In this document: positions 7,580 to 14,099 of the stretch, piece after piece
Position numbering within the stretch: the first letter of the stretch is position 1
How the letters are laid out: the number at the start of each line of letters is the position of its first letter
Assembly: GCA_023525915.1 (NCBI GenBank)
Contig: CP026659.1
Location: forward strand, 62,001 to 126,000
Source: Acetispira formosa (nom. nud.)
GTDB lineage: Bacteria; Desulfobacterota; Desulfarculia; Adiutricales; Adiutricaceae
DNA: 64,000 nucleotides
Reading direction: 5' to 3'
Program-made: the position numbers and the translations under genes
Notes under the pieces: generated by a model
The model's input: only the letters and a program-made list of their open reading frames with translations
Told to the model about the DNA's origin: nothing
Database searches by the model: none

Positions 7580-7950
7580 TCACATAGAGTTATTGTGTGG
7601 TTATGGCCGGACGGCCATGTGATTGAGGACTGGGCCTGACAGGCCCACCAAAGGGCTCCGCCCTCTGGACTCCGGCTGGGGGAGGGCCCACGCGGGCCCT
7701 GCCCCAGACCCCACCCGCGCCAGGGGGGCGGAGCCCCCTGGACCCCCAAGAGGTCAGGGTCGGCTTAAACATTCTTTTTCCCGCATCGCCGCAACTCGCT
7801 TCGAGTACGAAGCTCAGACAAGCGGCGACGCTTCATACTGGGTCAGCATCAGGGGCGATAGGTGGCTTCACATTGGATAGGTTCATTTTGCTATAGGTGG
7901 CCGCGTCGGATGATTGTTGCCCCACGTATGTTCGGCTTAATACTTTTTCC

Positions 7951-8230
7951 CCTCAAAGGCCTTTTCCAGCGCTGCAACGCATGAGGCTCTGCCGCCTACA
8001 GTTGAAAGAAGCAAGGCCCGCTCCCCTTAAAGGCCCTTTCCAGTGAAGTAACGCACATAACTCTGCCGCCTACAGTTAAAAGAAGCAGGGCCCGCTCCCC
8101 TTAAAGGCCCTTTCCAGTGAAGTAACGCACATAACTCTGCCGCCTACAGTTAAAAGAAGCAGGGCCCGCTCCCCTTAAAGGCCCTTTCCAGTGAAGAAAC
8201 GCACGTCACTCTGCTGCCTACAGTTGAAAG
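7951..8230 (+). repeat. 74-bp tandem repeat, about 3.7 copies
   Basis: CTCCCCTTAAAGGCCC starts at 8021, 8095 and 8169, an exact 74-bp period. The central copies are nearly identical and the first and last are diverged. Each carries CTCTGCCGCCTACAGTT. There is no open frame across the units and no spacer diversity, so this is a simple minisatellite rather than a CRISPR. Confidence 0.85.
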
Positions 8231-9803: not shown

Positions 9804-9918
9804 ATTAAATCCAGATAGAGCGGCGTGGGCCGTAATTTGTTTGAAAGCTATAATTTAACCTAACACAAATGCGACAAAGCGGTCCATAGCCTGGCCAAGT
9901 GTTATTTTTGCCAGACCG
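9804..9918. other. Short AT-rich intergenic stretch before the RNA module
   Basis: Separates the DUF4424-like gene (transcribed leftward) from the RNA module (transcribed rightward). Promoters for the former are likely here but no confident hexamers are seen. Confidence 0.4.
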
Positions 9919-9955
9919 CCATATAATAATTTTATATTATAAAATTATTATATGG
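9919..9955. repeat. Perfect AT-rich palindrome upstream of the RNA array
   Basis: 18-bp arms (CCATATAATAATTTTATA and complement) around a single T. The paralogous position before the single RNA unit has a similar palindrome at 11032-11082. It is placed about 60 bp before a promoter, which suggests a regulator-binding site. Confidence 0.65.
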
Positions 9956-10012
9956 TTTTATGGTTCTATAATTCAAACCGCCCGCCCCACTTTCTGCTCC
10001 CCCTTCATTACC

Positions 10013-10041
10013 TTGACATTTATTTATGGGCGTGATTTACT
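10013..10041 (+). promoter_or_regulatory. Sigma70-type promoter of the RNA array
   Basis: TTGACA (10013-10018), 17-nt spacer, TTTACT (10036-10041) preceded by an extended -10 TGA. The same promoter, with the same spacing, stands before the single unit at 11136-11164. Transcription should begin near 10048. Confidence 0.7.
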
Positions 10042-10047
10042 TTTGAT

Positions 10048-10990
10048 TGGGAATTTAGACGCCCACCGTGAGTCTTTCCACACAAAAGTGCCACCTAAAT
10101 CATGCTGTTCACCGCAAGGTGCGCGGTTAGTCCGGGTGTGGGCTGAATACAATACTCTTCGGAGGAATAGGTCTACGGCCGTACGGGGTCGCTAGAAACA
10201 CCCGGCCATTATTTTAATGGCCCTTACTTAATTTTTGAGACCGAACACACCAAAAGATAATGACTTAGAAATTGCGCGGTTAGTCCGGGTGTGGGCTGAA
10301 TACAATACTCTTCGGAGGAATAGGTCTACGGCCGTACGGGGTCGCTAGAAACACCCGGCCATTATTTTAATGCCTCTTACTTAATTTTTGAGACCGAACA
10401 CGCCAAAAGATGATGACTTAGAAGGTGCGCGGTTAGTCCGGGTGTGGGCTGAATACAATACTCTTCGGAGGAATAGGTCTACGGCCTACATGGGGTCGCT
10501 AGAAACACCCGGCCATTATTTCAATGGCCCTTACTTAATTTCTGAGGCCGAACACGCCAAAAGATAATGACTTAGAAATTGCGCGGTTAGTCCGGGTGCG
10601 GGCTGAATACAATACTCTTCGGAGGAATAGGTCTACGGCCGTTCGGGGTCGCTGCAAACACCCGGCCATTATTTTAATGGCCCTTACTTAATTTTTGAGA
10701 CCGAACACACCAAAAGATAATGACTTAGAATTTGCGCGGTTAGTCCGGGTGCGGGCTGAATACAATACTCTTCGGAGGAATAGGTCTACGGCCTACATGG
10801 GGTCGCTGCAAACGCCCGGCCATTATTTTAATGGCCCTTACTTAATTTTTGAGGCCGAACACGCCAAAAGATAATGACTTAGAAATTGCGCGGTTAGTCC
10901 GGGTGCGGGCTGAATACAATACTCTTCGGAGGAATAGGTCTACGGCCGTTCGGGGTCGCTTCTAACACCCGGCCATTATTTTAATGGCCT
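10048..10990 (+). ncRNA. Candidate structured RNA: six tandem units of 153-154 nt
   Basis: Units start (GCGCGGTTAG) at 10121, 10274, 10427, 10581, 10734 and 10888. A 5' leader contains the hairpin CACC-GCAA-GGTG (10110-10121), a GNRA tetraloop. Each unit can form P1 CCGGGTG with CACCCGG, enclosing two arms. The first is P2 TGGGC/GTCTA, capped by P3 CTC-TTCG-GAG (a UUCG tetraloop). The second is P4 CGGCC/GGTCG, with a loop that differs between units (GTACGG, TACATGG, GTTCGG). A hairpin P5, GGCCATTA-TTT-TAATGGCC, follows and shares GG with the end of P1. No open frame spans the units. The structure was found by eye. Between-unit changes fall in loops or keep pairing (a U-G for U-A pair in P1 of unit 5). 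It matches no RNA family I recognise. Whether it is one long RNA or several short ones is unknown. Confidence 0.65.
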
Positions 10991-11031
10991 CCAGTTTATA
11001 TTTCCTGGATAAACTCAAACATTAGCGCCAT
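10991..11031. other. Degenerate end of the array module
   Basis: After the sixth unit, TCCAG and CTGGA can pair around 10990-11015. This resembles the SD hairpin after the seventh unit, but no ATG frame follows, so a downstream gene may have been lost here. Confidence 0.35.
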
Positions 11032-11082
11032 AAAGCCATATAACCATTTTATACTGATATTATAAAATGATTATATGGCTTT
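11032..11082. repeat. AT-rich palindrome upstream of the single RNA unit
   Basis: 22-bp arms starting AAAGCCATATAA with one mismatch and a 7-nt centre. It is paralogous in sequence and position to the palindrome at 9919-9955. Confidence 0.65.
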
Positions 11083-11135
11083 ATGATTTTATAATTAAAT
11101 CTGTCCACCCCACATCCTGCTCCCCCTTCATTATC

Positions 11136-11164
11136 TTGACATTTATTTACGGGCGTGATTTACT
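11136..11164 (+). promoter_or_regulatory. Sigma70-type promoter of the single RNA unit and 149-aa gene
   Basis: TTGACA (11136-11141), 17-nt spacer, TTTACT (11159-11164) with TGA extended -10. Nearly identical to the promoter at 10013-10041. Confidence 0.7.
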
Positions 11165-11170
11165 TTCGAT

Positions 11171-11371
11171 GGGTATTTAGAAGTGCCCGCCCCCGTGGAC
11201 CCCACCATGTGAGAGTTCCACCTGATTCATGCTGTTCACCGAAAGGTGCGCGGCAGGGTCGGGTGTGGACTAAATACAATACTCTTCGGAGAAATAGGTC
11301 CACGGCCTGCATGGGGTCGCTTCTAAACACCCGGCCATTATTTTAATGGCCTCCAAATCTATTCTGGAGGC
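11171..11371 (+). ncRNA. Single diverged RNA unit as leader of the 149-aa gene
   Basis: The unit core is 11248-11351 and the start of the RNA is inferred from the promoter. The upstream hairpin is CACC-GAAA-GGTG (11237-11248), again GNRA. P2 here is TGGAC (11266-11270) with GTCCA (11298-11302). Compared with the array, two G-U pairs became G-C and A-U, which are compensatory changes. P1 is 11259-11266 with 11327-11334, and P4 is 11303-11307 with 11315-11319. P5 (11333-11340 with 11344-11351) shares GG with P1 and GCC with a third hairpin, GCCTCCA (11349-11355) with TGGAGGC (11365-11371), which buries the SD of the next gene. P1, P5 and the SD hairpin are therefore mutually competing, as in a riboswitch or protein-responsive leader. 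Confidence 0.6.
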
Positions 11372-11377
11372 GTTTAC

Positions 11378-11827
11378 ATGCCCGAGTTTGAAGCGAAAGC
11401 CCTATTTCTTATCGATCGTCAACGTGCCACGGAACTCACTGCCCGCCTTGAATCAAGGTGCGAACGCTTAAACATTCACTACGACATCTACAAACACAAC
11501 TATAAAGAGTTCACCGATTATGCTCGTCAGATCATTTTTTTGGTGGAGAATCTGGACCCTAAATCCGAGCTGTACCGCCGCCTCTCCAAAGATGATAATT
11601 TAGAGAAAATAATCAAAATCATCGATAGCTATACACAGAAGGAACTCCGCCAGTTCACCGTCATGCGCCATCACAACCAGCAGGCCATTGATTTTTGCCA
11701 CGCCCTGGCGCGTTATCTCACGCAGGATTGGCAAGACATTGAAAAGGAAATGACTGAACTTGAAATCAATAACGCTGAATTATTGAGCAAAAGAAAAAAA
11801 AAGACTGTTCGGAGGAAAAAGGCCTGA
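11378..11827 (+). CDS. 149-aa helical protein with basic tail, next to the RNA unit
   Basis: I do not recognise this family. The protein is predicted to be almost entirely helical: long charged helices around residues 12-55 (RQRATELTARLESRCERL), 60-95 and 95-135. It ends in a strongly basic tail (KRKKKTVRRKKA) suited to nucleic-acid binding. There are no signal peptide, membrane segments or obvious catalytic motifs. The ATG lies 7 nt after GGAGG, and that SD is inside a 7-bp hairpin of the leader, so translation is probably controlled by the RNA unit. A 3'-end fragment of a second copy of this gene (the DIEREMTELEINNA part) survives at 13285-13376. I infer an RNA-binding partner or effector of the RNA units. 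A toxin of a type III-like toxin-antitoxin pair is possible but it does not look like ToxN/AbiQ. Confidence 0.6.
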   Translation: MPEFEAKALFLIDRQRATELTARLESRCERLNIHYDIYKHNYKEFTDYARQIIFLVENLDPKSELYRRLSKDDNLEKIIKIIDSYTQKELRQFTVMRHHNQQAIDFCHALARYLTQDWQDIEKEMTELEINNAELLSKRKKKTVRRKKA

Positions 11828-11896
11828 GGCTTATGTGGAATCGCCGCGGCTTGGGGCTAAAAACCCCAAGCGCAAAGCTAAAATGGTGGAAGGAAG

Positions 11897-12112
11897 TCAA
11901 AGCGTCGGCTTTACCCGCTCTTGACGCTTCTGAATACGGGCGGCAATGTCATCAATCGTCACATCACCGTGCAGCTTTTCACGCTCGGCGGTGTAATCAC
12001 CGCTTCCGCTTTCAAACTGGCGCAGAAAGTTTATAGCTCCCACCGTTCCCAATCCCTCAACCAGAACCCGGAACCCCTGTTCCCGTATTGTATTAAAACT
12101 CGCATTTATCAT
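11897..12112 (-). CDS. Small PIN-associated antitoxin-like protein
   Basis: A 71-aa protein starting MINASFNTIREQGFRVLVEG and containing FLRQFESGSGDYTAERE, then DDIAARIQKRQE. Proteins of this type (MINxxFNTIREaG..aL.e.LG..g...FL.QFe.G.GDYT.ER) are typically encoded next to PIN-domain toxins of VapC type, and it is presumably the cognate antitoxin or accessory. The ATG lies inside the last 20 nt of the decayed PIN gene, so translation was coupled. Since the toxin is broken, this gene may be a relict that can still be expressed. A second, damaged copy lies at 8397-8604. Confidence 0.65.
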   Translation of the reverse strand: MINASFNTIREQGFRVLVEGLGTVGAINFLRQFESGSGDYTAEREKLHGDVTIDDIAARIQKRQERVKPTL

Positions 12113-12672: not shown

Positions 12673-13275
12673 ATGGCGGTATCCGGGAGCTATCTATCCA
12701 GCATCTACAATTCCTCCGCGCTGGACGCGGTCGGCAGGGCGGTGAAAACCAGGCAGGAGGCCACTGATTCCTTTATGCTGGCTGAAGAGCCGGAAGAGGC
12801 CGCCTCTGTAGGTGGAAAGGCGGGGATGGATGTGCAAAGTTTTGCCAATTCCTCCGCCAATGCGGTGGATTGGAGCGATCCGGCCGTTAAGCGTGAGATA
12901 CTTAGAATGTGCCTTCCGCCGATGGTGACCAACATCATCAGCACGGGTTGCTATTCCACGGAAACGTCGGCCGATCGCGGCAGTCTGGACCGGCTGGCCA
13001 CCAAGTATTTTGAGGAAGTGAAGGAGGAATACGGCTGTTCGGATGATTATATGCCCTATATGCCGGGCCTCTCTGAATTCGATGCGGACATTGAAGCGGC
13101 CATGAAACGCGCCCTCTATGACAAGGTTGAGGCCGATCCGGAAGCCGAACGGCTGACTCTGGCCATCGGCGGAATCTGGCCGCCGCCAGATAAGCTGAAT
13201 CTGGACACCATGACCTATGGCCCCGGCGCGCCCCACACCGGAGCCACCCCCTGGAACCGCCCGAGAATGTTATAA
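12673..13275 (+). CDS. Unknown 200-aa acidic protein, tandem copy 1
   Basis: I do not recognise the family. The product is acidic and soluble (no signal peptide or membrane segment) and starts MAVSGSYLSSIYNSSALDAV. A conserved central part, YFEEVKEEYGCSDDYMPY, is followed by ERL..AIGG.WPPPD.LNL and MTYGPGAP near the end. It has two Cys in the middle and a variable linker at residues 45-70. SD GGCGAGGTG is 6 nt before ATG. The leader contains GGTGGATAAC...TTTCCACC, which can form a hairpin. The next gene is a paralogue with almost the same leader, so the whole leader-plus-gene unit was duplicated. Confidence 0.65.
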   Translation: MAVSGSYLSSIYNSSALDAVGRAVKTRQEATDSFMLAEEPEEAASVGGKAGMDVQSFANSSANAVDWSDPAVKREILRMCLPPMVTNIISTGCYSTETSADRGSLDRLATKYFEEVKEEYGCSDDYMPYMPGLSEFDADIEAAMKRALYDKVEADPEAERLTLAIGGIWPPPDKLNLDTMTYGPGAPHTGATPWNRPRML

Positions 13276-13284
13276 TTATGCCGG

Positions 13285-13376
13285 GCTTGGAAAGACATTG
13301 AGAGGGAAATGACTGAACTTGAAATCAATAACGCTGATTCACTGAGCCAAAGCCGGAAAAACTGTTTGGAGGCGTA
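13285..13376 (+). pseudogene. 3'-end fragment of a second 149-aa gene
   Basis: The DNA encodes DIEREMTELEINNAD and continues in frame to a TAA at 13374-13376 that also ends a remnant tail. It matches the end of the gene at 11378-11827 at nucleotide level over about 90 bp. There is no 5' part, so a rearrangement joined this tail to the end of the first 200-aa gene. Confidence 0.7.
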
Positions 13377-13484: not shown

Positions 13485-14099
13485 ATGGCGGTATCCGGGA
13501 GCTATCTATCCAGCATCTACAATTCCTCCGCGCTGGACGCGGTCGGCAAGGCGGTTAAAATCAGGCAGGAGGCCACTGATTCCTTTATGCTGACCGAAGA
13601 GCCGGAAGAGGCGAACCTCACTGGCGAAAACCCTGAAAAAGGCATTTCCTGGGCCGAATTTCTGGAACTTGGCGATTCCTACACCGGCCCCTTGGATTGG
13701 CGTGACCCGGAAGTCAAGCGCCAGTGGGTTAAAATGGGCCAGCCGCCGATGGTGGCCAACGCCACCGGCACAGGCTGCTATTCCAAATCCACGGCGGCCG
13801 ATCGCGGCAGTCTGGAGCAACTGGTCGCCAAGTATTTTGAGGAAGTGAAAGAGGAATACGGCTGTTCGGATGACTATATGCCCTATGCGCCGGGCCTGCC
13901 TGAATTCGACGCGGCAATTGAGTCCAGTATGAAACGCGCCCTCTATGACAAGCTGGAGGCCGATCCTGAAGCCGAACGCCTGACCCGCGCCATTGGCGGA
14001 GTCTGGCCGCCGCCCGACAGGCTGAATCTGGAAACCATGACCTATGGCCCCGGCGCGCCCGTCAACAGAGACACCGCCTGGAGCCGCCCGCGAATATAA
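13485..14099 (+). CDS. Unknown 204-aa acidic protein, tandem copy 2
   Basis: A paralogue of the gene at 12673. The first 40 and last 110 residues are nearly identical (ADRGSLEQLVAKYFEEVKEE, YDKLEADPEAERLTRAIGG). Residues about 44-75 differ completely (ENPEKGISWAEFLELGDSY against a shorter stretch). The SD and about 70 bp of leader are shared with copy 1. The conserved termini with a swapped middle suggest either relaxed selection on a linker or a variable recognition part. No function can be assigned. Confidence 0.65.
   Translation: MAVSGSYLSSIYNSSALDAVGKAVKIRQEATDSFMLTEEPEEANLTGENPEKGISWAEFLELGDSYTGPLDWRDPEVKRQWVKMGQPPMVANATGTGCYSKSTAADRGSLEQLVAKYFEEVKEEYGCSDDYMPYAPGLPEFDAAIESSMKRALYDKLEADPEAERLTRAIGGVWPPPDRLNLETMTYGPGAPVNRDTAWSRPRI

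Follow-up and report, generated by a model that had tools for sequence, protein, structure and literature searches.

Each RNA unit in the window (the whole 64,000-nucleotide stretch of DNA analysed here) is best explained, at a probability of roughly three in four, as an sRNA-Xcc1-type antisense RNA with the mode of action known from C4, the repressor of phages P1 and P7. Its helices P1 and P4 and a tetraloop-capped P2/P3 arm, joined in a three-way junction, would present two arms, b' in the P4 loop and a' in the joining strand J4/1, which would pair with a matching target made of a site a followed by a site b, namely a1/b1 in the RNA's own leader and, in most phage members, a2/b2. The RNA would be cut out of its transcript and block ribosome binding on an antirepressor-type gene, in cis and in trans, the arms thereby setting the specificity of immunity, and the a1/b1 leader may act as a decoy or counter-regulator. 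Unit 7 would be a cassette controlling a 149-aa gene that has its Shine–Dalgarno (SD) sequence in a hairpin of its own instead of an a2/b2 site, and the array of six units would have arisen from a duplication of the cassette, with loss of the gene and amplification of the RNA. The complementarity, the layout and the gene association of the family are evident from the compared sequences given below; we infer that the RNAs are transcribed, are processed and act as repressors, and likewise how the array is used.

The six-unit array and its promoter

The six units, 153–154 bp each, occupy 10120–10991, and every one holds one three-way-junction RNA of 77–78 nt. Tandem Repeats Finder, run on the window, places the array at 10120–10989 with a period of 153, 5.7 copies and 93% matches; repeat finding and reading of the sequence thus bear out the tandem array of structured units that the initial annotation had described. 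The promoter and the leader hairpin reported there are present as well. The promoter (10013–10041, recognised from the sequence and from paralog promoters) consists of TTGACA (10013–10018), a 17-bp spacer and TG-A-TTTACT (10036–10041), with the extended -10 TGATTTACT, and a near-identical promoter precedes the other promoter-linked copies of the RNA in the same genome. It was not called by a generic promoter scan, because the rule of the scan demands an A at the second position of the -10 element. The GNRA hairpin CACC-GCAA-GGTG lies in the array leader at 10110–10121, before unit 1, and the leader of unit 7 has the GAAA version. All features given here with window coordinates for the array and for unit 7 lie on the forward (+) strand.

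The units were scored with R1, a covariance model built from 14 copies, and with RF02221, the Rfam model of sRNA-Xcc1. Unit 1 (10132–10208; R1 95.3 bits, RF02221 42.2 bits) carries b' CCGTACGGGG and a' CTAGAAA, and unit 2 (10285–10361; 95.3 and 42.2 bits) has the same arms. Unit 3 (10438–10515; 91.9 and 39.5 bits) joins b' CCTACATGGGG to a' CTAGAAA, unit 4 (10592–10668; 93.8 and 45.0 bits) joins CCGTTCGGGG to CTGCAAA, unit 5 (10745–10822; 88.3 and 40.4 bits) has CCTACATGGGG with CTGCAAA, and unit 6 (10899–10975; 94.5 and 47.0 bits) has CCGTTCGGGG with CTTCTAA. Unit 1 is followed at 10204–10222 by the hairpin P5 (GGCCATTATTTTAATGGCC), as are the other units; its first two G double as the end of the P1 helix, and its 3' strand is altered in unit 2.

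Relationship to sRNA-Xcc1 and conservation of the fold

At the gathering threshold, Rfam gave no match for the window units, which suggested an orphan RNA, and the initial annotation had seen no recognised family. That reading was overturned by a permissive covariance search, in which all seven units match RF02221 with 39.5–47.0 bits (E 1e-6 to 6e-5) over the full length of the model (positions 1–87 of 87 in all seven, comprising P1, the two-part arm, P4 and J4/1). Since these scores fall below the gathering cut-off of 53 bits while paralogs from the same genome pass it (L037 with 62.3, L029 with 57.5 and L016 with 53.4 bits), the window units are, by model score, divergent relatives of sRNA-Xcc1, a branch outside membership by Rfam's cut-off rule. 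Also above the cut-off are L051 (79 bits), L044 and the phage contigs L060 and L061, so that these copies range overall from 53 to 79 bits. The window RNAs share with RF02221 the three-way junction and the conserved AAUAnAAnACC...GGAAUA arm, and they differ in scoring under the cut-off and in forming a tandem array of 153-bp units.

sRNA-Xcc1 is known from Xanthomonas as an sRNA whose targets were predicted in bulk and whose transcript was mapped at 88 nt (PMC2996969). It has also been found upstream of symE in integrons, where the regulation is unexplained (PMC12444791), and in Xylella, where five copies cluster at a spacing of about 380 bp and hundreds of predicted targets are listed (PMC12189769). 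No paired target sites are described for it in the accessible literature on the family.

P1 (CCGGGTG/CACCCGG), the UUCG-capped P2/P3 arm and P4 with its variable loop are found in every unit. Folded alone, a unit is only mildly better than its shuffles (z about -1 to -2). Among 68 distinct related RNAs, mostly from phage contigs, 92% of the helix cells are paired, two-sided changes occur in 17 of 20 pairs, compensating cells number 242 against 72 in shuffles, and sliding the partner by one base lowers the pairing to about 55%; among 37 distinct RNAs of this genome and its relatives, 95% of the pair cells are paired, all of these counts leaning towards the model to which both alignments were fitted. 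Comparison of the two sets therefore upholds the earlier claim that the three-helix junction keeps pairing while its loops vary. The loop that was said to change from unit to unit is indeed variable and corresponds to the antisense arm b' in P4; the second arm, a' in J4/1, had been missed.

Proposed antisense arms and their complementary sites in the leader

In promoter-linked copies, the leader opens with a hairpin whose loop has its reverse complement in J4/1 (a', about 7 nt); a few to 30 nt past this a site lies a leader segment that has its reverse complement in the P4 loop (b'). The arm sequences vary from locus to locus, and the complementarity to the RNA's own leader is kept. All 12 promoter-linked copies in this genome have an ordered a-then-b site upstream, counted when at least 12 bases were matched. 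So do 15 of the 16 copies from relatives and, among 75 distinct phage arm pairs, 64; these pairs are related by descent and hence not fully independent. The corresponding controls with mismatched pairs gave 23 of 2095 (this genome), 7 of 1582 (relatives) and 71 of 6816 (phages), or about 1%. The summed duplex energy is -21.9 kcal/mol with the cognate leader vs -14.2 kcal/mol with non-cognate ones, and by this measure the RNA's own leader ranks first in nine of the 12 cases and second in the other three. The a' and b' columns are also the most variable of the RNA in this genome and its relatives (1.3–1.4 bits vs 0.4–0.5 in helix P1).

In this genome, no ordered site accompanies the six array units, three copies that lie behind genes, or a weak match that follows the gene of L034. 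Unit 1 does have a leader, but its own a' and b' do not match it.

Variation of the arms within the array

Ten columns of the RNA core vary between the array units, and eight of them lie in a' or b' (Fisher p = 5e-6), giving three versions of a', three of b' and five combinations in the six units. A scaffold that stays nearly constant while both arms change would fit an increased dose of RNA combined with a target specificity that is new or relaxed. For unit 6, two leaders allow pairing in the right order (7+5 nt), that of unit 7 and that of locus C3:38047. For units 1–5, neither the window nor the tested loci of this genome yielded an ordered a/b target, and one whole-genome pattern for targets of the array arms returned only the array's own reverse strand and chance-level matches.

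The array arms may have diversified for new targets or may be drifting. The array may be a functionless tandem duplication in decay, amplified by slippage and with arms that drift without a target; we consider this possible, though unlikely. It would account for the want of ordered targets for units 1–5 and for the loss of the gene from the array cassette, and the copies behind genes in L013, L014 and L015 likewise have no ordered target that could be found. Against it speak the intact promoter and the near-invariant core with three versions of each arm (p = 5e-6), a pattern for which drift alone is insufficient unless the scaffold is selected or was recently homogenised.

A multi-specific bank of antisense immunity against several phages or mobile elements, aimed at their antirepressor or regulator genes, in which one transcript would be processed into several C4-type RNAs with a constant scaffold and mixed-and-matched arms, is a more doubtful proposition still. 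As an antisense RNA of the proposed kind, the array multiplies its scaffold and concentrates variation in the targeting arms, which would make it relevant to superinfection immunity and of interest as a modular antisense design occurring in nature.

The linkers of the array (window 10230–10270 and others) contain CCGAAC and TTAGAA, complementary to b' and a' of unit 6; they were rejected as a target, the order b-a being wrong for the a-b target of the C4 type.

Second complementary sites and presumed regulated genes in phages

Behind the RNA, 51 of 75 phage arm pairs have a second ordered a..b site, against 40 of 6816 mismatched pairs. The end of b2 lies at a median of 9 nt before the start codon, in 45 of 47 cases b2 lies across or next to an SD-like sequence, and the phage gene behind the RNA usually starts 40–60 nt past it. 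The 79 downstream proteins include 24 with P22_AR, 15 with Bro-N, 12 with Rha, eight with KilA-N, three with ORF6N, three with a CI-repressor HTH and one with AntA; behind the RNA of phage contig L060 stands an AntA gene. In the window's genome, three loci (L016, L037 and L039) carry upstream and downstream sites together with a Rha-family gene, which is truncated in L037.

Single elements illustrate the same arrangement. In the Sulfuricystis plasmid pSTJ2, the loop of the leader hairpin holds CTCGTAA with CTGCAAG beside it, and the arms of the RNA are TTACGAG and CTTGCAG. The leader of Pasteurella phage Pmp3 holds CTCAAAA and CCAAAAA, and TCAAAA and CCAAAAA occur again just before the start codon of the next gene, which is annotated as the anti-repressor Ant. 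Leaders of the phage type have a terminator-like hairpin with a U-run.

Comparison with C4 and other leader RNAs

C4 (RF01695; c4-a1b1, RF03163) of phages P1 and P7 has the same layout of promoter, a1, b1, RNA, a2, b2 at the ribosome-binding site (RBS) and a regulator or antirepressor gene. The phage P1 record annotates, in this order, a promoter, a1, b1, C4, a2, b2 (repression of icd ant translation), icd and ant, and Rfam scores 68.8 bits for C4 and 51 bits for c4-a1b1 on the locus. Both C4 and the sRNA-Xcc1 type are closed by a stem, have an arm capped by a tetraloop, and carry b' in the loop of a hairpin and a' in a joining strand; C4 differs in its longer closing stem and in having no AAUAnAA/GGAAUA internal loop, and the Adiutrix-type copies studied here differ from it in having no a2/b2. 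C4 is processed by RNase P, its b' covers the RBS and its a' gives specificity (PMC5320573).

The sRNA-Xcc1 type appears, from this layout and pairing, to work like C4, and its membership of the C4 family is unsupported, as no similarity in sequence or by covariance model was detected. R1 gives no real match on c4 of phage P1, RF02221 gives none on the P1 locus, and the C4 model (RF01695) finds nothing in 9900–11900 at E up to 10 nor in the paralogs at E up to 0.1. The Rfam tables place C4 in clan CL00128 and RF02221 in none. A limited literature search found no paper that links sRNA-Xcc1 to C4, and a co-mention lists both as separate RNAs.

The C4-like Group 1 sRNAs of Acinetobacter baumannii also form many C4-type paralogs per genome, which vary mainly in a', are expressed and seem to be processed (PMC5320573). 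These dispersed RNAs match the C4 model, whereas the window RNAs are of the sRNA-Xcc1 type, have identifiable cognate targets in their leaders and include six units head-to-tail. IsrK of Salmonella Gifsy-1 (RF01394) is comparable in being a leader RNA that carries a terminator and precedes an antirepressor mRNA, and the isrK model weakly matches the a1/b1 region of phage P1 (35 bits). It differs in acting in trans to activate translation (PMC4825925), and the window leaders, for their part, have a GNRA hairpin and no U-run.

The two-arm reading of the C4 type was adopted over a pseudoknot, a self-assembling RNA or a guide RNA because of the second target at the RBS and the layout of phage P1, and the last two of these were dropped on the same grounds. 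The a/b pairs could instead be intramolecular pseudoknots of one long cis-acting leader, riboswitch-like or an attenuator, since a1/b1 share a transcript with the RNA in almost every promoter-linked copy, some copies in genome G005 (e.g. L055 and L056) keep a1/b1 with no clear gene behind, and the pairing of a 7-nt hairpin loop with J4/1 is compatible with a kissing fold. This seems improbable, as a pure leader pseudoknot would have no need of the second site that the phage arms match over the RBS (51/75), the C4 RNA of phage P1 shares the layout and is known to act in trans as an antisense RNA (PMC5320573, PMC8546580), and the array and the copies at the 3' side of genes occur with no leader of their own.

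We regard it as equally improbable that the array is not a set of repressors and serves as a sponge or decoy titrating another RNA or a hypothetical scaffold-binding protein. The several identical scaffolds in one presumed transcript would suit such a role, and J4/1 of units 1–3 (GCTAGAAAC) is the exact reverse complement of a' GTTTCTAGC of the RNA at C1:261668 (L037); the IsrK leader of Salmonella, moreover, acts in trans and activates an antirepressor (PMC4825925). However, b' of units 1–3 has no matching partner in L037.

Two-arm antisense repression of the next gene would give sRNA-Xcc1, so far treated as an orphan trans-acting sRNA tied to plant virulence, a simple mechanism in common with C4 of phage P1. 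Its regulated genes would mostly be phage antirepressors, with targets readable from sequence alone, and one scaffold is apparently in use across phages, plasmids and chromosomal cassettes.

The unit 7 cassette and the 149-aa gene

The cassette of unit 7 runs in the order promoter, a1, b1, GNRA hairpin, RNA, P5, SD-hiding hairpin and gene. Its promoter (11136–11164; TTGACA, 17 bp, extended -10 TTTACT) was recognised from the sequence and from the paralog promoters. The a1 site TTTAGAAG (11176–11183) lies in the 5' hairpin of the leader and is an 8-nt perfect complement of the J4/1 of unit 7, and the b1 region CCCCACCATG (11200–11209) complements the P4 loop in two 5-nt blocks; at locus L013 on the same contig, the b1 match is 8 nt long (CCCAAACG). 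The GNRA hairpin CACC-GAAA-GGTG follows at 11237–11248, and then the RNA at 11259–11337 (R1 87.9 bits, RF02221 45.9 bits), with b' CCTGCATGGGG and a' CTTCTAAA.

Behind it, a hairpin GCCTCC...GGAGGC (11349–11371), similar in several chromosomal paralogs, can hide the downstream SD and sits where the phage members have a2/b2. The presumed regulated gene (11378–11827) encodes a predicted helical protein of 149 aa, and a 75%-identical copy stands behind the same RNA at C3:38162. AlphaFold predicts an all-helical structure (pLDDT 81); family searches gave no convincing family and fold searches of the model no match, and the close homologs are confined to this genome among 37 of its family. Neither unit 7 nor the array has a2/b2, as is also the case for several chromosomal cassettes of this genome. 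With a2/b2 absent and the SD in its own hairpin, unit 7 may act on the gene through translation or, via the leader, through the fate of the transcript.

The initial annotation had compared the tandem RNA next to a small basic protein with two layouts, and that of a multi-unit regulatory RNA is supported, the array being a conserved, structured RNA of several units behind a promoter. The other, a type III toxin–antitoxin system in which repeated antitoxin RNA units precede a toxin gene, would suit tandem structured RNA behind a promoter with such a protein adjoining and is nonetheless very improbable, given that the gene is part of the cassette of unit 7, which has one unit only and a promoter of its own, that its product, predicted to be all-helical, has no match to a toxin family or fold, unlike the beta-barrel nucleases of the ToxN type, and that homologous RNAs precede phage regulator genes.

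Distribution of the RNA

R1 finds the RNA at 22 places in the window's own genome (about 20 copies by our tally), including further copies on the chromosome, and in eight of 60 genomes, the own genome included; the named relatives are Candidatus Adiutrix assemblies, to which the host is thus probably closely related. In contigs fetched by a pattern for the conserved arm, it finds about 135 places, nearly all of them in phages, of which several are Stx-converting. One pattern match, L059, was discarded as the full motif is missing and the match falls in the chance range. A BLAST search of a plasmid collection with the RNA gave few matches, because the RNA is short and divergent.

A second, shorter tandem case was observed on a phage contig, where two RNA units stand 7 nt apart before a gene (L189:7366–7521). 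The same-contig locus C3:38047 (L013) has one RNA on each side of the 75%-identical gene copy, and a second copy stands directly behind the gene at L013:2683–2759, L014:1501–1579 and L015:1715–1791; in L013 and L014, this 3' copy has the b' loop core of the copy before the gene and a different a'. Read by eye, five loci of G005 (L043, L053, L055, L056 and L058) are RNA cassettes with no clear protein gene, followed by a short, seemingly conserved frame (like VATLH..R.CYR.SKIRF) and a terminator-like hairpin. The cassette gene at L031:1151–1450 encodes a Cro/C1-type HTH protein (HTH_3, E 5e-13), the N-terminal start of which resembles that of the helical proteins. The gene at L034:1628–2080 is close to that of L014 and has ATA in place of its ATG start, by which the L034 cassette is probably inactive.

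Surroundings of the cassettes in the window

A long AT-rich inverted repeat (CCATATAATAATTTT...AAAATTATTATATGG or similar) precedes each cassette, at 9922–9957 and 11035–11085, about 50–60 bp upstream of the two cassette promoters. Farther downstream, two tandem paralogous genes of about 200 aa, both starting MAVSGSYLSSIYNSSALDAVG, occupy 12673–13275 and 13485–14099, the first of them with no Pfam match. Between them, 13276–13365 holds a remnant of the 3' part of the 149-aa gene (30 aa, 60% identity), which suggests that the region has been shuffled. Another tandem array, with a 74-bp period and 3.8 copies, was found by Tandem Repeats Finder at 7948–8230.
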